Positions 15,235 to 41,397 of a DNA stretch of 64,000 nt are shown in pieces; the stretch's first letter is position 1, and every line of letters begins with the position of its first letter. Made by a program: the position numbers and the translations under genes. The DNA comes from Halodesulfurarchaeum formicicum (GTDB lineage: Archaea; Halobacteriota; Halobacteria; Halobacteriales; Halobacteriaceae). The stretch covers positions 558,001 through 622,000 of the forward strand of contig NZ_CP016804.1 in assembly GCF_001886955.1 (NCBI RefSeq), given 5' to 3'. The notes beneath the pieces were generated by a model. It did no database searches. It was not told where the DNA came from and saw nothing but the letters and a program-made list of their open reading frames with translations.

Positions 15235-15287
<53 letters not shown>

Positions 15288-15309
<22 letters not shown>

Positions 15310-15415
15310 CTTTTCGAACGTAGTGAGAAAATGCGACGGAAAGGGATTTGACACCCTACCAGACGCGCAGCGAAGTGAGCACGTCTGGTTCTGGTTCAAA
15401 TCCCTGACGGAGCAC
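15288..15415 (+). repeat. Duplicated tRNA-Glu 3' end (candidate attachment-site pair)
   Basis: The last 22 nt of the tRNA plus the next base (15288-15310, from GGTTCAAATCCC to GGAGCAC) recur exactly at 15393-15415. Between them, AGGGATTTGA (15342-15351) pairs with TCAAATCCCT (15396-15405), and inside this CCAGACG (15359-15365) pairs with CGTCTGG (15382-15388), giving a nested stem-loop. A third, degenerate T-arm-like copy (GGGTTCAAATTCC) begins near 15508. Tandem tRNA 3' ends are what repeated integration and excision of elements leaves behind; no integrase gene is in the window. Confidence 0.75.
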
Positions 15416-15812
15416 TGCAACGAGGGCCGGCCGTTTTGACCCGAGTGAAGCGCGCAGGGAAGAGATTTGAATCACGCAAATCCGACCGAAGGGAGGATTT
15501 GCCATCGGGTTCAAATTCCAAAGGGCATGCGAGACGCTCGCGGTTTGAGCGTCTCGGGAATAGCGAACGGGGAGAAACGACCCGTGAGCATGCGAGATGC
15601 TCGCGGTTTGAGCGTCTCGGGAATAGCGAACGGGGAACGGAGTGACCCCTGAGCAGCGAGACGCGAACGAAGTGAGAGCCTCGGTTTTGCGAGCGGTGGA
15701 ACCGCGAGCACTGCAGCGAACGAGGGACCTCCCGTATCATGTGGCGAGAACGGACCGTTGATTAGTAATAGCCGCCCGAAGGGTTTTGAATCTTGGTAAA
15801 GTAACGAACCAT
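15310..15812. other. Gene-free repeat-rich spacer after tRNA-Glu
   Basis: About 500 bp without a supportable gene. Open frames on both strands here are built from the repeats (Arg/Ser-rich translations). Besides the tRNA-end copies and tandem hairpin units listed separately, GCAAATCC (15476-15483) pairs with GGATTTGC (15495-15502), and many short GCGAACGAAGTGAG-type words recur. Confidence 0.6.
15525..15636. repeat. Two tandem 49-bp hairpin units
   Basis: Unit 1 (15525-15573) and unit 2 (15588-15636) are identical except for one base, with a 63-bp period. Unit 1 contains GAGACGCTC (15531-15539) and GAGCGTCTC (15547-15555), a perfect 9-bp stem with a 7-nt loop; in unit 2 one stem base is changed (GAGATGCTC). 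The DNA following each unit differs. Confidence 0.8.
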
Positions 15813-22915: not shown

Positions 22916-23596
22916 ATGAACGAAGCACCAGAAACGGTGTCCGAAGGGCGTATCGACCCGGATACCACGAACCCCGACACGACCTGTGCGAGCGGGGGTA
23001 TCGAATCAGATCACCAGCCGAAAGCAGAGACTACCGGCGATATGAACGTCGATTCGACCGACCCCGTGGCGCGAGGAGGGTTGCCGCTCGACGAAACGTT
23101 CGAACTACTGCGTAACCAGCGCCGCCGCTATGTGCTCCAGTATCTCGAATCACAGCCCGGCCAGGTATCGCTGAGCGAGCTGGCCGAGCAGATTGCGGCC
23201 TGGGAGAACGAAAAAGAAATCAGACAGATCACCTCCAGTGAGCGAAAGCGGGTGTACGTCGGACTCTACCAGTGTCACCTGCCGAAGATGGACGGCATGG
23301 ACGTCATTTCGTTCAACAAACCCCGGGGGTTGATCGAACTCGGAGCGAACGCCGACGCGGTCGAACCGTACCTGCAGCGCCCCGCAACTACAGACCGGCT
23401 GTCCGGGCTCCGCGTCGGTCTCCCGGTCATCGGCCTCTCCCTGGTGCCCATGGCGATACTACTGCAGTCTCAATCGATGCTCTCGCTACTCGCCGCGCTG
23501 GCTGTCATCGTGGTGGCCACCCTCGGTGGCGTTGGGATGCTTCTCCGATCGGGCGGCGATCCTGACGTGGCGACCGACACAACGGCGGTCACATGA
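22916..23596 (+). CDS. DUF7344-type winged-helix membrane protein, copy 1
   Basis: 226-aa protein. An acidic, probably disordered N-terminus (about 60 residues) precedes a winged-helix-like domain starting LDETFELLRNQRRRYVLQYL, with LAEQIAAWENEKEI and ERKRVYVGLYQCHLPKMD, which is the haloarchaeal DUF7344 signature. Two C-terminal hydrophobic helices (about residues 165-210) anchor it to the membrane. Such proteins are thought to be regulators, but no target is known. Tandem paralogue of the next gene. Confidence 0.8.
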   Translation: MNEAPETVSEGRIDPDTTNPDTTCASGGIESDHQPKAETTGDMNVDSTDPVARGGLPLDETFELLRNQRRRYVLQYLESQPGQVSLSELAEQIAAWENEKEIRQITSSERKRVYVGLYQCHLPKMDGMDVISFNKPRGLIELGANADAVEPYLQRPATTDRLSGLRVGLPVIGLSLVPMAILLQSQSMLSLLAALAVIVVATLGGVGMLLRSGGDPDVATDTTAVT

Positions 23597-23741
23597 ACGC
23601 CAATGAACACGCCTCTGGCCCGGTAATCCCTGCTTTATGTGGGCATTACTCGGGGAATCGAATACATAACAATGGGGTAAACTCGTCAACGAAATGTATG
23701 GACACATTCGGCCGAACCCTCACGCAAACTACTCAAGGACG

Positions 23742-24296
23742 ATGAGTTCCTCCGATTCGGCCGGGCTGAGCACGGACCAGATATTCGAGATACTCAGTAG
23801 TCAACGCCGGCGGATGGTTCTCTATTATCTCCGCCAGCATGGGGGGTCGGCGACGATGAGCGACCTCGCCGATCAGATCGCGGCCTGGGAGAACGAGACC
23901 GAGATCGACGAGTTGACGAGCCAGGAACGAAAGCGCGTGTACGTCTCACTGTACCAGACCCACCTCCCGAAACTCGCCTCCACCAACCTGATCGATTATG
24001 ACTCCGACGAGGGGGATGTCAGACTCACCGACCGGGCGACAGAGATGGACGCCTTTCTCAGCCCCAAGCAGCGCTCGGGGTACTCCTGGCGTCGACACTA
24101 CTTCGCACTCCTGCTTCTCGCTGGTGCCCTGATGGTGATCGGGGTGATCGTAACGCCACTTTTCGGACCAAACGTGTTGCCGCTTTTGGTTGGCGGCATC
24201 TTGATCGGCTATCTGGTGACAGTCGGGGTCGAGTACTGGTACCACCGGAAACAGCAGTCGACGGTACCGGTCGAGCTCGTCCCCGACGACCAGTGA
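23742..24296 (+). CDS. DUF7344-type winged-helix membrane protein, copy 2
   Basis: 184-aa paralogue of the preceding protein: LSTDQIFEILSSQRRRMVLY, LADQIAAWENETEIDEL and ERKRVYVSLYQTHLPKLA at residues about 10-85, then two transmembrane helices and a basic/His stretch (YWYHRKQQ). ATG at 23742 is preferred because the 16 residues before it are not conserved with copy 1. An A/T-rich stretch around 23650-23680 may contain its own promoter. Confidence 0.8.
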   Translation: MSSSDSAGLSTDQIFEILSSQRRRMVLYYLRQHGGSATMSDLADQIAAWENETEIDELTSQERKRVYVSLYQTHLPKLASTNLIDYDSDEGDVRLTDRATEMDAFLSPKQRSGYSWRRHYFALLLLAGALMVIGVIVTPLFGPNVLPLLVGGILIGYLVTVGVEYWYHRKQQSTVPVELVPDDQ

Positions 24297-30955: not shown

Positions 30956-31219
30956 TCAGAGATAGCCGAGTGATTCGAGCCGGTCCGCAACCGCTTCGTC
31001 GGTGTGTCGGCTGTCGACGTCGGCGGTTTCGCCGTCCGAACCGGTATGCGCAGACGGGTCGTCGTGTCGGTCGATTTCCCGTAGCAACTGGCCGAGCGCG
31101 AACGTGACGTATTCGTCGACGGTTTCAAAGTCAGTCCACGAGAGCCGGTCTGCGATGATCTGTGCGGTCCGTTCCGGTATCTCGACGGTTCGAGTCTCGT
31201 CTTCAGTGTCGTCGATCAT
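30956..31219 (-). CDS. Small RHH-like protein with a sulfatase-type LGYL tail
   Basis: 87-aa acidic protein. The first half (TRTVEIPERTAQIIADRLSW, VDEYVTFALGQLLREI) looks like a ribbon-helix-helix or small helical domain; the end VADRLESLGYL resembles the terminal RLxxLGY motif of haloarchaeal sulfatases (compare VADHLRDLGYR at the end of the protein at 41406-42386). ATGA overlap with the DUF354 gene before it. Function unknown, possibly a regulator or partner of glycan enzymes. Confidence 0.7.
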   Translation of the reverse strand: MIDDTEDETRTVEIPERTAQIIADRLSWTDFETVDEYVTFALGQLLREIDRHDDPSAHTGSDGETADVDSRHTDEAVADRLESLGYL

Positions 31220-32349
31220 GCGTGTGCCTCCGTTTCGAGAATCGTCTCGATCAACTGTGCGGTCACGTCGGGCTGGTCGGCGACCAGTCGGTCGCGGCGC
31301 TCACGGTAGTCGACCCGGTCGATACCTACCGCGAGCAGGTCCTCGACGGCACGAATCGCCTCGGTTTCGTCGGCGAACGACCGCAGGAGCCCGTACTGCT
31401 GTTCGAGCGCCTGGAACACGGGTTCGTCGTCCTCCCCAACCATCGTGTTCGTCCGAATGGCCGGGGTCCCGAGTATCGCAGCCTCGGTCGACATCGTCCC
31501 TGAGTCCCCCACGTAGAGGTCGGCGTAGTAGAGGACGTGGTGGATGTCGGACGGGTCGGTCGGCAACCGGTACTGCTGCAGGTCCTCCGGGAGGGTCGCT
31601 TCCGCGGAGATGAACACCCGACCCGCCTCCGAGAGCCGGTCGATTAGCGTTCGCAGGGCTTCGGGGGACAGACCCGCGTACCCGACGTCGTGGTAGGCGT
31701 CCCAGCCAGCGATCCGGACGACGAAGAACCGCTCTTCGGGGTCGATGCCGTGGGCTTCGAGGACGGCCGGATCCGGGTCGAAGTAGTTCGGATGCAGGTA
31801 TGCCAACTCCTGGAAGTCAAGCGGGCGGCGCTTCCGGGCGTCGACGGACAGCTCGAAACTCTCGGGGGCACAGAGGGTGTCGACGAACGGGAGTGTGACA
31901 CCGTGGTACACCAGCCGCAGCCACCGATTGTCGATGTGAGTGTCGCTGACGGCGACGTGTCGACAGCCGACGAGCGTCGCCACGTGAGCGGGAACGGGTC
32001 CGAGACGGCTCACGATGACGTCAGGCCTGAATCGTCGCGCGACCCCGAGCAGTCGGACCTCGCGAGCCAGCAACTCGATTGCCAGCGACGGCAGCGAATC
32101 CCCACGGGTCGAAAGCGGCCGATGGGCGATGCCGTAGGCATCCAGCAGGTCGACGGTGACCTCCTTCTCGCGGGACGTGACGAACGTCTCGTGGCCCCGT
32201 TCCCCGAGTTCGGCGATGGCGTTGCGGAACAGGTGGACCTGTGCGGGGTGGCCCACGTCGAACAGCACTCGGAGGCCCGTGTCCGTGTCGGTGGGCGTGG
32301 GCACGTCACTGTTTCCCGCTCGCTCGACACGCTGTTGTGTCACGGCCAC
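31216..32349 (-). CDS. DUF354 family protein (GT-B fold, UDP-GlcNAc epimerase/glycosyltransferase-like)
   Basis: 377-aa protein beginning its conserved part at residue 26: LRVLFDVGHPAQVHLFRNAI, the DUF354 signature, with DVIVSRLGPVPAHVATL and the C-terminal YYADLYVGDSGTMSTEAAIL typical of nucleotide-sugar-binding GT-B proteins. It probably acts on a UDP-amino sugar. GTG start at 32349 overlaps the end of the dehydrogenase gene, so the first 25 residues may not all be translated. Part of the 31-35 kb reverse-strand operon. Confidence 0.82.
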   Translation of the reverse strand: MAVTQQRVERAGNSDVPTPTDTDTGLRVLFDVGHPAQVHLFRNAIAELGERGHETFVTSREKEVTVDLLDAYGIAHRPLSTRGDSLPSLAIELLAREVRLLGVARRFRPDVIVSRLGPVPAHVATLVGCRHVAVSDTHIDNRWLRLVYHGVTLPFVDTLCAPESFELSVDARKRRPLDFQELAYLHPNYFDPDPAVLEAHGIDPEERFFVVRIAGWDAYHDVGYAGLSPEALRTLIDRLSEAGRVFISAEATLPEDLQQYRLPTDPSDIHHVLYYADLYVGDSGTMSTEAAILGTPAIRTNTMVGEDDEPVFQALEQQYGLLRSFADETEAIRAVEDLLAVGIDRVDYRERRDRLVADQPDVTAQLIETILETEAHA

Positions 32350-33707
32350 TGGCCCCCGATGGTGTACACCGGCTGTTCGACCTCACTCGCGTTGACGGCG
32401 TCCCGACCGTCTAGGATGGGCGCGTCGAAGCGGTCCCAGTCCAGGTCGGCGAACTCGTCGTGTGGGGTCACGAGGACGACCGCGTCGACTGCTCGATCGG
32501 TGCTTTCCTCGAGTGTGAGCGGCTCGATGTCCCCGACGACGCTCCAATCGTCCAGCAGGGGGTCGACCGCGTACACCGTCGCCCCGCGCTCCCGGAGGTT
32601 CCGGACCAGAGGGATCGAGGGCGCGTTGCGGAGTTCGTTGATGTTGGCCTTGTAGGTCACTCCCAGCAGGAGCACTGACGCCGATTCGAGGGCGACGCCG
32701 TGAGCGTCCAGTATCGCTTCGAGGTTCGAGACGGTGTACTCGGGCATCGCGTCGTTGGTATCACGGGCCGCGGTCAGGAGCGACGAGTCGGTGTTGTACT
32801 GGTCGGTGAGGAAGTACGGGTAGACCGGGATGCAGTGACCGCCGACGCCGGGGCCCGGGTCGTGGATATCGCAGAACGGCTGGGTGTTGGCGACGTCGAT
32901 GGCCTCGGTGACGTCGATGTCCATCGCGGGGTTATAGCGGGCGAGCTGGTTGGCCAGCGCGATGTTGACGTCCCGGTAGACCCCCTCGAACACCTTGACC
33001 GCCTCGGCGGTCGCCGCGTCGCTGGTCGGGACGACCTCGTTGTCGGATATCTCGCCGTAGACGAGTTCGGCCGCGCGGGTACTCTCCTCGTCGACACCGC
33101 CTACGACCTTGGGATGTGTGCCTCGCACGTCCTGCAGCGCCTGCCCGCTGACGGTTCGTTCGGGACAGGCCGCCGCGCCGAAGGCTGCGGGGTCCAGGCC
33201 GCTCGCGGCACTGAGATTCGGGACAACCCGGTCAGCCGTCGTGCGCGGGGGGACTGTCGATTCGACGAACACGACGTCTCCCGGTGACAGTCCCGCACCG
33301 ACGGTTTCGACTACCTCGTCGAGGAGCGAGAGGTCCGGTTGTCGATCGTCGGTCAAAAGCGTCGGAACCATCAGCACGTGGACAGCAGCCTCCTCGGCGG
33401 CTGCTTCCCCGTCGGTCGTCGCCCGGAGGTCGTCGTTGTCGACGACCGCTGTGACGAGTTCGGCCAGTCCCGGCTCCCGCTTGACGTGCGTGTTTCCGGC
33501 GTTGATCGACTCGACGACTTCCGGATCGATATCGACGCCGATCGTGTTGCCGGTCACCTCCGCGTAGACCGCCGCCAGGGGCAGTCCCATCTTCCCGAGG
33601 CCGTAGACGGCTACAGGTACCTCGCCACTGGTGAACGCCGCGCGCTGGTCGGCCTCGGTTGCGGTGGTGTCGTACAGCCCGGAGTGGGCTCCGAGTGCGG
33701 GACTCAT
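32340..33707 (-). CDS. wecC: Nucleotide-sugar dehydrogenase (WecC-like)
   Basis: 455-aa enzyme of the UDP-glucose/UDP-ManNAc dehydrogenase family; four-electron oxidation of a UDP-sugar to a uronic acid. Rossmann motif VAVYGLGKMGLPLAAVYAEV (residues 32-51), VFVESTVPPRTTADRV, the catalytic cysteine in GVGGHCIPVYPYFL near residue 279, and LLLGVTYKANINELRNAP. Closest in pattern to UDP-N-acetylmannosaminuronate dehydrogenases. ATG overlaps the end of the broken oxidoreductase gene. Confidence 0.88.
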   Translation of the reverse strand: MSPALGAHSGLYDTTATEADQRAAFTSGEVPVAVYGLGKMGLPLAAVYAEVTGNTIGVDIDPEVVESINAGNTHVKREPGLAELVTAVVDNDDLRATTDGEAAAEEAAVHVLMVPTLLTDDRQPDLSLLDEVVETVGAGLSPGDVVFVESTVPPRTTADRVVPNLSAASGLDPAAFGAAACPERTVSGQALQDVRGTHPKVVGGVDEESTRAAELVYGEISDNEVVPTSDAATAEAVKVFEGVYRDVNIALANQLARYNPAMDIDVTEAIDVANTQPFCDIHDPGPGVGGHCIPVYPYFLTDQYNTDSSLLTAARDTNDAMPEYTVSNLEAILDAHGVALESASVLLLGVTYKANINELRNAPSIPLVRNLRERGATVYAVDPLLDDWSVVGDIEPLTLEESTDRAVDAVVLVTPHDEFADLDWDRFDAPILDGRDAVNASEVEQPVYTIGGQWP

Positions 33708-35022
33708 GGCGCCACCGTCTGGGGTTCCTCCAGTGCGTCCGCCTCGATCTCCTGGAGCAGCGCCAGCACCTCCAGGGCCGCTTCGGGCGTGACGACCGGC
33801 TCGGTGCCGGTTTCGGCTGCCTCGACGAACGACGCCAGTTCGGCCTTTAGCGGCTCGCCGGTCTCGACGATGGGTCGCTCGACGACGCTCTCGTGACGGT
33901 GTCGGATGTCGCCGTCGGCCTCGACGTATTCGGGGAAGGACCGCCGGTGAATTTCGACCGACTGGCTGATGAAGTCGACGTTCACCCGACAGGAGAGTGC
34001 CGTCAGCGAGAGCTGACGGATCTTCTGCTGGGTCACCCGGCTCGCCGTCAGGGTCGCCACGCTGTCGTTCTCGAACTTGAACTGGGCGGTTGCGTGGCGG
34101 TCGTCGTGGGCCACCGCCGAGAGGGACGTGACATCGTCATCGATCAGCGATAACAGGATGTCGAGGTCGTGGATCATGAGGTCCATCACGACGTTGTCCT
34201 CGTTGTCTCGGTCCAGCGGTGGGCCGAGACGGTCGATTTCGATGGCCACGACGTCAAGATCGGGTACCATCTCGACCAGCACCTGGGTCGCGGGATTGAA
34301 CCGCTCGATGTGGCCGACCTGGAGTGTGACCCCCGCCTCGCGGGCCCGGGCAGCGAGTTCCCGCCCGCGCTCCAGGTCATCGACGAACGGTTTCTCGACG
34401 AGGACATCGACGCCGTGGTCGATACAGGCCGCGACCGCCTCGTAGTGGTGGGGGGTTGGGACCGCGACGGAGGCGACGTCGACTGCCTCCAGTAACTCGT
34501 CTCTGTCCATCGCGATGGCCCGGTAGTCCTCGGCCGTCCGCTTCGCCCGATCGGCGTCGACAGACGGTCGATTTCGATGGCCACGACGTCAAGATCGGGT
34601 ACCATCTCGACCAGCACCTGGGTCGCGGGATTGAACCGCTCGATGTGGCCGACCTGAAGTGTGACCCCTGCCTCGCGGGCCCGCTCGGCGAGTTCGCGCC
34701 CACGGTTCAGGTCGTCGACGAACGGTTTTTCGACGAGAACATCGACGTCGCGGTCGATACAGGCCGCGACCGCGTCGTAATGGTGTGGCGTCGGGACCGC
34801 GACGGAAACAACATCGACTGCTTCCAGTAACTCGTCTCTGTCCATCGCGATGGCCCGGTAGTCTTCGGCCGTCCGCTTCGCCCGATCGGCGTCGACGTCG
34901 TGGACGCCCACCAGTGTCGTGTCCTGGAGTTCGCTGTACACCCGTGCGTGGTTCTGTCCCATGCTTCCGACCCCGATGACGCCGGCTGCGAGCCGCCCAT
35001 CGAACGGTGGTCGGTCGCTCAT
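33704..35022 (-). pseudogene. Gfo/Idh/MocA-family oxidoreductase, disrupted by an internal duplication
   Basis: NAD-dependent sugar oxidoreductase (likely acting on a UDP-amino-uronic sugar). The N-terminal frame starts with ATG at 35022 (AAGVIGVGSMGQNHARVYSE, residues 11-30; PTPHHYDAV; EKPFVDD; HIERFNPA) and leaves frame after DVVAIEIDRL near 34563. A second frame, from within the repeated part (MDRDELLEAVDVASVAV at 34510), carries the remaining C-terminal domain to the TGA at 33704. The 335-bp duplication is not a multiple of three; without it the gene would be 984 bp (327 aa). Stop overlaps the wecC-like start, showing the former operon order. Confidence 0.85.
34227..34896. repeat. Diverged 335-bp tandem duplication inside the oxidoreductase gene
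   Basis: Copy A starts at 34228 and copy B at 34563 (offset 335). The first 94 bases are identical, then about 25 mismatches are scattered over the next 220, and the last 40 bases are nearly identical. Many mismatches are synonymous in the respective reading frames (for example AVDVAS/AVDVVS, HHYEAV/HHYDAV), so each copy looks like a selected allele and not like a fresh copy error. Confidence 0.9.
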
Positions 35023-37586: not shown

Positions 37587-38834
37587 TCAGGACGATTTCT
37601 GATGGGCGGCCACTTCCGCTCGAATGATGGCGACGATCTGCTGGCGGTCCTGTTCGTCGACATAGGGGTGGGTCGGAAGCGTGAGGATAGCACGCTGGAG
37701 CGCCGCGGCGCCGGGAAACGCCTCTGGGTCGAGGATCGGCCAGTCATACAGCGTTGTCGCCTGGATGCCGGCGTCGACGAGCGACGCCTTGATGCGGTCC
37801 CGCAGTGACTCTGACTCGAGCCGGATCGGATACCGGACGTACTGGAGCAATGTGAGCCCCTCAACGGGAGTTAGGTGCCTGATACCGCCAACGTCCGATA
37901 GCTCGGTGGCGTAGAACCGCGCCGTTCGCTCCCGTTGAGTCCGGTGGTTATCAAGGCGTTCGAACACCCGGTGGCCGACGGTTCCCTGGAAGTTCGACAG
38001 CGTCGCGAACTGGTCGCCGTACGCCACGTCGAACTTCTGCTCCGGGTGGGTTGTGGCTGGGGCTGACAGCCCGGCCGCATCCAGCAGGGTCCGGAGTCGT
38101 GAATAGACGTAGTAGGCCCGCGGCCGCGAGAACACCGTGTAACCGGCGAGTGCCCCGACGTTCACGTCGACCGCGGGGCGGTCGGCGTCGCTAAAGGAAA
38201 GTGCGGGGTTCTGGTTGACGACCATTCCGCCGCCCACCGGGATCGGTTTCCCCTGCTGGAAGTTCAGCACCGCACAATCGCCGAACGTGCCGAGGCGCTC
38301 CTGGTCGTACTCCGTCCCCAGCGCGTAGCCGAGCGCCTCGACGAGAAACGTGTTGTGGGTCCCACACTGCTCGGCAAGTTCGGCTATCGGTGACCCATAG
38401 CCCAGGACGTTGACGGCGACGAGGGCCAGCGGGTCCGATCGGAGTTCGGCCGCGACCGAGTCCTCGTCGGCGGCCAGCGTCTCCGGGTCGATGTCGTACC
38501 GGACCGCCTCCAGCCCGACTCCCTCGATGGCGTCGACGAAGTCGGAGCTGCAAAAGGCCGGCACCAGCACCGTTTCCCGGTCGTCTTCCTGCCGGGCCAA
38601 CTCCTGGAGGCAGGCAGCAAGTGCGCGTCGGAACGAGGTGTAGGTCCCGCTGCCCTCGGCGTCGAGGGACGTTTCGATCGTCCGACGGAACTGGCCGCGT
38701 CCCTCGTTCCGGAACTGTCCGAGGAGTCCGGCACCGATGTCCGAGGCTCGCAGCGGCGTGACTGCAGGAGGGACCAGTCGCATCCGCCGTGACCGGCGCC
38801 GTCGGTCGGCCGGCCCGGTGGACTCACGTTGCAT
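37587..38834 (-). CDS. DegT/DnrJ/EryC1-type PLP-dependent aminotransferase-like protein
   Basis: 415-aa protein. The ATG at 38834 (MQRESTGPADRRR) is chosen because it follows a promoter element. Sugar-aminotransferase features: TSFRRALAACLQELARQ, VLVPAFCSSDFVDAIEGVGL, VEALGYALG and the PLP-lysine region VLNFQQGKPIPVGGGMVV (Lys near residue 195). The family transfers an amino group to a keto-sugar; this member is diverged. Reverse orientation to 39232. Confidence 0.82.
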   Translation of the reverse strand: MQRESTGPADRRRRSRRMRLVPPAVTPLRASDIGAGLLGQFRNEGRGQFRRTIETSLDAEGSGTYTSFRRALAACLQELARQEDDRETVLVPAFCSSDFVDAIEGVGLEAVRYDIDPETLAADEDSVAAELRSDPLALVAVNVLGYGSPIAELAEQCGTHNTFLVEALGYALGTEYDQERLGTFGDCAVLNFQQGKPIPVGGGMVVNQNPALSFSDADRPAVDVNVGALAGYTVFSRPRAYYVYSRLRTLLDAAGLSAPATTHPEQKFDVAYGDQFATLSNFQGTVGHRVFERLDNHRTQRERTARFYATELSDVGGIRHLTPVEGLTLLQYVRYPIRLESESLRDRIKASLVDAGIQATTLYDWPILDPEAFPGAAALQRAILTLPTHPYVDEQDRQQIVAIIRAEVAAHQKSS

Positions 38835-39231
38835 TACCCGTCCCGAGTGTGACCGGCAACTAAGGTACCGACAGCTTACCGCTGTCGCCCCCTGATGGCT
38901 CCTCGACTGGGCGAGGGACACCAGGTTTTCGCGTCCGCGAACCGTCGCTGACCGACCCGGTCGTGGCGAAATCGGATAACACCACCAGACAGATTTCGGC
39001 CCGTACAGGTCCGTTAAGGTGGGATTAACCCAGATATTGTCGATCCTACCACTGCCATGGTTGGTATTGTGTGGGTGTGATTGTGGGTGGAACGGGCCGC
39101 GATCTGTGCAGTCAACTCGTAACTACCTGGACTCCAAAATCAGGTAACTAGTCGTCAATCGGCAGGAATAACCGGTTTATCGTCCCAATCCTGCAGAAAG
39201 GGTCTTTGTAGTAAGTCCATCATTCCGGGCC
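38835..39231. promoter_or_regulatory. Divergent promoter region
   Basis: About 400 bp without a gene. Reading towards the aminotransferase, GTAAGCTG (38879-38872) followed by TCGGTACCTTAGTT forms the motif-plus-TATA arrangement about 38-45 nt before its ATG. Towards the beta-helix gene, TACCTG (39125-39130) and CAGGTA (39142-39147) form an inverted repeat with an 11-nt spacer, and GGTTTATC (39174-39181) is a possible TATA box. Confidence 0.45.
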
Positions 39232-41397
39232 ATGGGAAATCGTAATGGTCCCGCTACCGAGGAGGAGTCGACTGGCGATGACGAGAAAGCCATTCCTATC
39301 ACTCGCCGCCGGCTCGTTCAGCTCGCCGGGCTCGGGGTTACTGGAGCCACAGCGGCCGCGATGTCACAAGGTGCGAGCGCGGGGTCGTCCCCTGACAGGC
39401 TCGAAATCATCTCGTCTGGGAGCGAACGGATCGATTACTCGTTCACGACCACGGACAGCATCACGCCGATCGAGAACAACAGTTTCGTGTCGGCGGAGGC
39501 GGCCGAGGAGTCGGTGGTCGAGAACGATGACGGAACCGTAACCGTGACCGGTCGGATGGACCCGGGGTACGGCGACACATTCGAGATTAGCGGCGACGTC
39601 GTCGCGTTCCGGCCACAGACGGGCAGTTATCGGCTCTATTTGAACGGGGAGCGCATCTCGCGGTCGGATCTGGTGACCGACCGGACCCGTCGTCTGGAGA
39701 TCACGACCCCCGATGACGGCTCCGTCGAGTACGCGATGACCACGTCGGGCGAGATCACGAAAGTGTTCGACAACGGGCCCCTCTCCGCCGAGGAGAGTAA
39801 CGACACCATTACGGAGAACGACGACGGCACCTGGACGGTGACCGGACTGACGGGCAACGGCTACGGCGACACGTTCGAGTTTGCGGGCGAGGTGCTTGAT
39901 TTCTCGCCGCTCACCGGCGAGTTCGCCCTCAAAGTCGATGGCGAGTCGGTCACGCCCCACGAGCTACTGGGCGAAAAGCGTGTTTACGACCGCGAGCACA
40001 GCTATTCCTTCGAGGGCGTCGGCGACGATTGGGCTGACGTCTACCTCGAAGTCGAGGAGAACGGGAAGCTGGTTGCCTCGACGTTGGACGGGGCGACGAT
40101 CGATTCCGATTACTACTGGATCAGTGACGACGGCACGAAGGCCGCGGCACGTGTCTTCCCCGATGATCGGGACGCATTCCAGTTCGACAACCTGGTACTC
40201 GACGTGACCATCGACGGGACGGCCGATGCGTACGTCGACGGCAGGCAGTCGAAAGTCTCCCGGTACCCCCAGCCGGGGGCGAGCGGTGACGACTGGAAAG
40301 GCGGTTTCTTCTGGCAGGACGAAGAGACGACGACTGATACGACGACTGATTCGACAACCGACACGACAACCGATACGACGACTGATTCGACAACCGATAC
40401 GACGACTGATACGACGACTGATACGACAACCGAAACGGGCACGGACGGCATCGGGATTGGCGGTGGGTCCGGATACGAGAACATCGTGACCCGCGAGGAC
40501 GCCGACTACGTGGTTCAGAGCGCAAACGGCATTCAGGACGCCCTCGCCTCCGCGTCGTCTGGCGATATCGTCTTCGTTTCCGGGGACGCCGTCATCGACA
40601 CCGGTGGGCGGTCCATGGACGTGCCCAGCGGCGTCACGCTGGCGTCGAACCGCGGCCTCGATGGCGCTCCCGGGGCACTGCTGCGCACCGACGAGACGCC
40701 CCAGATCATGCTGCGCCCGCAGGCCAACTCACGCGTAACTGGGCTGCGGCTCCGCGGACACTCTCCCGACAGAACCGTGACCCACCGGGACGGGATCTCC
40801 TTCGATACGCCCACGTACGCGATGCGTCTGGAGGGCGGCGACGTCGAAGTCGACAACTGCAAGGTGTGGGGATGGCCGGACCGTGCCATCTCCGTGCAGG
40901 AGGCCGGCTCACACGTCCACCACAACTACATCTTCGACAACAACGGCCAGGGCCTCGGCTACGGTGTGGCCGCGAACGACGAGTGTCTCATCGAGTACAA
41001 CTACTTCCACAACAACCGCCACTCGGTGACCTGTGCCTACAACGCACCGGGGTACACCGCCCGGTACAACCACTTCTCGCCGGTCTCGGTGATGCACATC
41101 TGTGACGTTCACGATCCCTTCCAGGGCGACACGACCATCGAGTCGAACGTCATCGAGAACGGCGAGTCCCGGACGTGGGACAACCCCGCAGCAGAGGGTG
41201 TGGCAGGCTACTCCGGCGGCTTCGACGGCGGGTCGCTGACAGTGATGGACAACTGGTTCTTCGATCAGTCCACCGCCTACTTCGAGGACTTCGGGGCCGT
41301 CAGCGACAGCGGGAACGTCTACGGCGACGAGGGTGCTCACGACCCCGCCGATGTCATCCCGAACCACCCCGGTCTGGGCGACCGGCCGTGGCTCTGA
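39232..41397 (+). CDS. Tat-exported right-handed beta-helix protein with duplicated N-terminal module
   Basis: 721 aa. Twin-arginine signal ITRRRLVQLAGLGVTGATAA (residues 23-42). Residues about 56-245 hold two tandem copies of one module: GYGDTFEISGDVVAFRPQTG in copy 1 and GYGDTFEFAGEVLDFSPLTG in copy 2, each introduced by DDGT.TVTG. A related third unit ends DVTIDGTADAYVDGRQ. A Thr/Asp linker (residues 366-401) leads to a pectate-lyase-like beta-helix (HHNYIFDNNGQG, IEYNYFHNNRHS). Probably a secreted polysaccharide-binding or -modifying protein; no catalytic residues assigned. Confidence 0.85.
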   Translation: MGNRNGPATEEESTGDDEKAIPITRRRLVQLAGLGVTGATAAAMSQGASAGSSPDRLEIISSGSERIDYSFTTTDSITPIENNSFVSAEAAEESVVENDDGTVTVTGRMDPGYGDTFEISGDVVAFRPQTGSYRLYLNGERISRSDLVTDRTRRLEITTPDDGSVEYAMTTSGEITKVFDNGPLSAEESNDTITENDDGTWTVTGLTGNGYGDTFEFAGEVLDFSPLTGEFALKVDGESVTPHELLGEKRVYDREHSYSFEGVGDDWADVYLEVEENGKLVASTLDGATIDSDYYWISDDGTKAAARVFPDDRDAFQFDNLVLDVTIDGTADAYVDGRQSKVSRYPQPGASGDDWKGGFFWQDEETTTDTTTDSTTDTTTDTTTDSTTDTTTDTTTDTTTETGTDGIGIGGGSGYENIVTREDADYVVQSANGIQDALASASSGDIVFVSGDAVIDTGGRSMDVPSGVTLASNRGLDGAPGALLRTDETPQIMLRPQANSRVTGLRLRGHSPDRTVTHRDGISFDTPTYAMRLEGGDVEVDNCKVWGWPDRAISVQEAGSHVHHNYIFDNNGQGLGYGVAANDECLIEYNYFHNNRHSVTCAYNAPGYTARYNHFSPVSVMHICDVHDPFQGDTTIESNVIENGESRTWDNPAAEGVAGYSGGFDGGSLTVMDNWFFDQSTAYFEDFGAVSDSGNVYGDEGAHDPADVIPNHPGLGDRPWL
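40327..40434 (+). repeat. Nine 12-bp repeats encoding a (T/S)TTD linker
   Basis: Nine tandem 12-nt units (ACGACGACTGAT and variants with TCGACAACCGAC) encode [T/S]TTD nine times, the last ending in Glu. The unit length keeps the frame for any copy-number change, so the linker can vary in length between strains. A Thr-rich, acidic linker is a typical O-glycosylation target in haloarchaeal surface proteins. Confidence 0.9.

Follow-up and report, generated by a model that had tools for sequence, protein, structure and literature searches.

The chromosome of Halodesulfurarchaeum formicicum HSR6, which was taken as the source strain, comprises 2,085,946 bp (PMC5437934). Within the window (i.e., the whole stretch of 64,000 nucleotides that was analyzed), a gene encoding a Gfo/Idh/MocA oxidoreductase that resembles UDP-sugar 3-dehydrogenases contains two directly abutting copies (A and B) of a segment of 335 bp each, and the gene as deposited is frame-shifted at the junction between them (Table 1). 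Frame analysis revealed that removal of either copy yields an open frame of 327 amino acids (aa), as the initial annotation of this DNA had claimed. In the deposited sequence, the NAD-binding domain and the C-terminal domain are split over two open reading frames (ORFs), and the in-frame portion of the reading that starts at the ATG of the gene (~153 aa) comprises the whole NAD-binding domain. The one-copy frame matched PF01408 with 88.4 bits against a gathering cut-off of 24 (E 7e-25), a cut-off that was also passed by the N-terminal reading alone, and it matched PF22725 as well. A C-terminal alpha/beta domain occurs in the same polypeptide only when one copy is absent, and not in the gene as deposited.

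The intact neighboring genes suggest a modified UDP-amino-sugar pathway. They include a nucleotide-sugar dehydrogenase (TIGR03026) and a DegT-type aminotransferase, together with a product that had no NCBIfam match and that is likely a DUF354-type glycan enzyme. Both the fold family of the oxidoreductase and its neighborhood (nucleotide-sugar dehydrogenase, DegT aminotransferase) are shared with the WbpB-type and archaeal UDP-GlcNAc 3-dehydrogenases of amino-uronic sugar pathways. The archaeal UDP-GlcNAc 3-dehydrogenase model (NF040723) was also the top NCBIfam match; however, the score of 203.9 bits is far under the curated equivalog cut-off of 450. The Pfam and NCBIfam matches bear out the earlier assignment to the Gfo/Idh/MocA family, here beside a UDP-sugar dehydrogenase, but do not show the exact reaction.

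Table 1. Features of the oxidoreductase locus (positions are those of the window).
Feature	Position	Strand	Remark
Gene of unnamed product	31216..32349	-	Intact; conserved next to the oxidoreductase gene in relatives
Nucleotide-sugar dehydrogenase (TIGR03026)	32340..33707	-	Intact; conserved neighbor
Gfo/Idh/MocA oxidoreductase gene (UDP-sugar 3-dehydrogenase-like)	33704..35022	-	Frame-shifted as deposited; frame analysis and Pfam
268-aa ORF	33704..34510	-	Copy A from an internal ATG, and C-terminal domain
278-aa reading from the ATG of the gene	34186..35022	-	In frame over the N-terminal part and copy B, out of frame thereafter
Copy A	34227..34561	-	Adjoins the C-terminal part of the oxidoreductase gene
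Copy B	34562..34896	-	Adjoins the N-terminal part of the oxidoreductase gene
95-bp identical tract	34227..34321		Identical to 34562-34656; equals K-1 for K=96 unipaths
Diverged block	34322..34487		Counterpart 34657-34822; 24 of the 25 A/B differences
32-bp identical tract	34530..34561		Identical to 34865-34896; opposite end of the copies
A/B junction	34561..34562		No microhomology
DegT-type aminotransferase	37587..38921	-	Intact; member of the conserved cluster

Structure and divergence of the tandem copies

Self-BLASTN of the window aligned the copies over 335 of 335 positions with 0 gaps (92.5% identity, E ~1e-135), and TRF reported a period of 335 with 2.0 copies and a score of 1165. These results confirm that the duplication is present in the deposited sequence, far above chance. 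The copies are identical at 310 of their 335 bp and differ by 25 mismatches. The A/B junction shows no microhomology: just before the repeat, the left flank has G and the junction C, and just after the repeat, the right flank has G and the junction A. The initial annotation had described tandem, frame-disrupting copies with ~92% identity, which these data corroborate. Its repeat length of 335 bp was also correct, although the true positions of both copies lie 1 base to the left of those that it gave. An identical end exists as it had stated, with a length of 95 bp rather than 94 bp.

The A/B differences are concentrated at third codon positions (20 of 25; P = 2e-6 when compared to random), amino acid replacements result from only 6 of the 22 codons that differ, and dN/dS is ~0.13, in line with the earlier description of the differences as mostly synonymous. 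This divergence is typical of working alleles rather than of a dead duplicate and indicates that the copies diverged in genes under selection, before they lay side by side. The differences are also unevenly spread. The 166-bp diverged block has a divergence of 14.5% (dS 0.52, dN 0.06), whereas a single difference was found in the 169 bp outside of it. If differences were evenly spread, the chance of a 95-bp difference-free run would be ~2e-4 to 6e-4. Special constraint was rejected as the cause of this identity, since in relatives the third positions of the 95-bp tract (0.52 identity) have diverged about as much as those elsewhere in the gene, the patch excepted (0.50-0.54). The clustering of differences in a block with near-identical ends suggests that the alleles differ by a patch, as after short homologous recombination.

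Third-position G+C in the diverged block is 0.84 for copy A and 0.70 for copy B, when compared to 0.81-0.87 in the rest of the gene, suggesting that copy B may carry an imported patch. Based on 16 against 4 changes, this difference weakly points to copy A as the native version and to copy B as the putative recipient.

Distribution of the oxidoreductase gene among relatives

Homologs were sought in genomes of the family and of two further families, as well as in an evenly drawn sample of the class. In each of the ten relatives whose cluster was read, the gene is single-copy, intact, and adjoins a nucleotide-sugar dehydrogenase, and in most of them matches to the unnamed product and to the DegT aminotransferase are also nearby. 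Two complete tandem paralogs, the arrangement that the initial annotation had named as contrary to its interpretation, were absent from these ten relatives. No second homolog of the oxidoreductase was detected in its own genome at E <= 1e-3. Collectively, these observations argue against tandem paralogs, which had been offered as one source of the diverged copies, and against a donor elsewhere in the genome, a candidate that was rejected accordingly.

The gene is absent from the two other genomes of the genus, and the best homologs in the other genomes searched (69-73% protein identity) are from other families of the same order. With 73% protein identity at best, these searches yielded no donor or closer relative, and the native copy was therefore not assignable from relatives. 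A search of further genome contigs returned distant bacterial matches only, and a search of viral contigs returned no match. In several relatives (G019, G012, G014, and G011 among others), the homolog lies inside an open frame of ~700-770 codons, which may represent a fusion or merely an open flank.

Origin of the tandem copies

The published methods for the HSR6 assembly describe Illumina paired-end and mate-pair data only, assembled with ALLPATHS-LG and SPAdes 3.7.0 and refined in Geneious, and mention no long reads. The default unipaths of ALLPATHS-LG are built with K=96 (PMC5905499). Divergent haplotypes are known to produce ‘duplicated overlapping contigs’, a described type of assembly error (Kelley and Salzberg, 2010; PMC2864568). 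In the haloarchaea, which are polyploid, two alleles persist over many generations in at least one species (PMC10085750).

The tandem arrangement was probably created during assembly, when two alleles of a single region were joined. The sequence pattern is observed directly, as is the signature of selection in how the copies diverged, whereas the mixture of alleles and the join itself are inferred. The DNA sequenced from HSR6 would have been a mixture of two gene forms that carried the A block and the B block, respectively, and were identical outside a patch of ~170-210 bp. One form may have acquired the patch from a related strain by ordinary homologous recombination or, alternatively, the patch may have existed as a mixed state within a polyploid cell. 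The short-read assembly would then have branched at the patch, with the first contig ending just beyond it (34561) and the next starting with the K-1 shared bases that precede it (34562), and the two contigs would have been placed end to end rather than merged over their overlap. Both real alleles would then encode an intact 327-aa enzyme. We also considered that the join may have arisen from punctuation dropped from an assembly file that lists alternatives.

Several features argue for an allelic join. The repeat encloses the patch with identical margins of 95 and 32 bp, which is automatic for an allelic branch and would be unexplained by independent events. A contig that opens with a branch arm starts K-1 bases earlier, and thus the 95-bp tract at the start of copy B, which is the longest exact match between the copies, fits K=96. 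The junction without microhomology counts for an assembler over a cell, and the single copy in ten relatives also counts for this interpretation. The layout is that of a false duplication of the haplotype type, with end-to-end adjacent copies, slight divergence, and unique flanks, as in the ‘duplicated overlapping contigs’ of PMC2864568, which likewise reflect an unjoined contig overlap; however, those were described in diploid vertebrates, whereas this case involves a finished archaeal chromosome, a length of 335 bp, and a higher divergence (7.5%). Among the options that the initial annotation had raised, the Illumina-only assembly, the bracketed patch, and the K-1 end favor a merging of two strain haplotypes during assembly.

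Other features count against an allelic join. No other adjacent diverged duplication of a comparable kind was found in the window and 40 further stretches of the same chromosome (862 kb, 41% of its length), which makes a general two-strain mixture unlikely, so that the allelic difference must be local. The 32-bp end is left unexplained by K=96, and a true 335-bp duplication could, in principle, have been resolved by mate pairs and by reads of the length given for HTSR1 (up to 250 bp). Moreover, the match of 95 bp to K-1 is a single number for which several values of K would have been suggestive, and it is perhaps worth a factor of ten. If the duplication is an artefact, the type strain has a step of its surface-sugar pathway scored as broken in error, and the deposited chromosome contains a mistake that can be corrected. 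An artefact would also indicate that the culture harbors genuine allelic variation at a surface-sugar gene.

A real tandem duplication shares its first step (two alleles that differ by a patch) with an assembly join, and the two differ in whether the assembler or the cell performed the second. Unequal exchange between a native and a recombinant allele in one cell lineage would have joined B to A and broken the gene, a course of events that we consider possible though doubtful. It takes the sequence as deposited, has both copies evolve under selection, and is compatible with the capacity of polyploid haloarchaea to hold two alleles for a time (PMC10085750). In addition, k-mers of K=96 can just resolve an exact repeat of 95 bp, so that a true duplication would have assembled. 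Against this, a real duplication requires both a patch-bearing allele and an illegitimate join with zero microhomology that happens to enclose the patch, and no close relative shows one. Out-of-frame duplicates are also normally lost quickly through recombination. A true duplication would be an uncommon trace of alleles having undergone unequal exchange in a polyploid archaeon, and if the gene is truly broken, no homolog in the genome would replace it.

If the duplication is real, it is conceivable, with the same reservation, that the cell is polyploid with both alleles and that homologous deletion between the copies could restore the gene and make the duplication a revertible switch. In bacteria, internal tandem duplications reversibly inactivate surface-glycan genes. 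The locus resembles these in having a frame-breaking repeat in a gene of a surface-sugar cluster that deletion between the copies would restore; however, the bacterial repeats are identical or nearly so, whereas the central divergence here is 14.5% and there is no evidence of switching. The earlier suggestion of a pathway step that is lost or phase-variable received no positive support. The full scenario, in which unequal allele exchange in a polyploid cell created a real, reversible off-switch of a surface-sugar gene whose reversion yields mosaic alleles of the NAD-binding domain, appears improbable.

Slightly less probable still is a remnant of two complete tandem paralogs, one truncated at its 3' end and the other at its 5' end, with the identical ends produced by gene conversion between them. 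Paralogs with conversion could account for the divergence at third positions under selection and for the mosaic identity, but in all ten relatives a single copy separates the dehydrogenase from the aminotransferase side, and no second homolog was detected in the genome at E <= 1e-3. Slippage duplication with subsequent decay of the inactivated gene would yield a tandem layout and a frame-shifted gene but almost certainly did not occur, since decay would spread differences evenly over codon positions rather than place 20 of 25 at third positions and would not leave a clustered patch with identical ends; this codon-position test agrees with the initial annotation that simple slippage cannot explain diverged copies.

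Other repeats in the window and chromosome

The other close repeats in the 862 kb comprised short-period arrays, tRNA-adjacent repeats, and two repeat-rich stretches. In the window, the region downstream of tRNA-Glu contains repeats of sequence that matches the 3' ends of tRNAs (15235-15420), and elsewhere on the chromosome duplicated stretches adjoin tRNA-Gly (L063, 1403-1743) and tRNA-Leu (L096, 7417-8013). These tRNA-adjacent repeats are possibly scars of integration at tRNA genes. Also downstream of tRNA-Glu, two diverged tandem copies of a ~63-bp non-coding unit were identified (15525-15661). Neighboring genes at 22916-23596 and 23694-24296 share a similar segment (78% over 120 bp) and are apparently tandem DNA-binding-like paralogs. 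A repeat of 12/36 bp at 40327-40437 encodes a Thr/Asp/Ser-rich stretch in a 721-aa, probably secreted protein (39232-41397). Finally, one further stretch (L098, G000:C1:852001-872000) is rich in long near-identical repeats; a 33-bp tandem array is among them, as are several dispersed copies spaced 1.5-2 kb apart.
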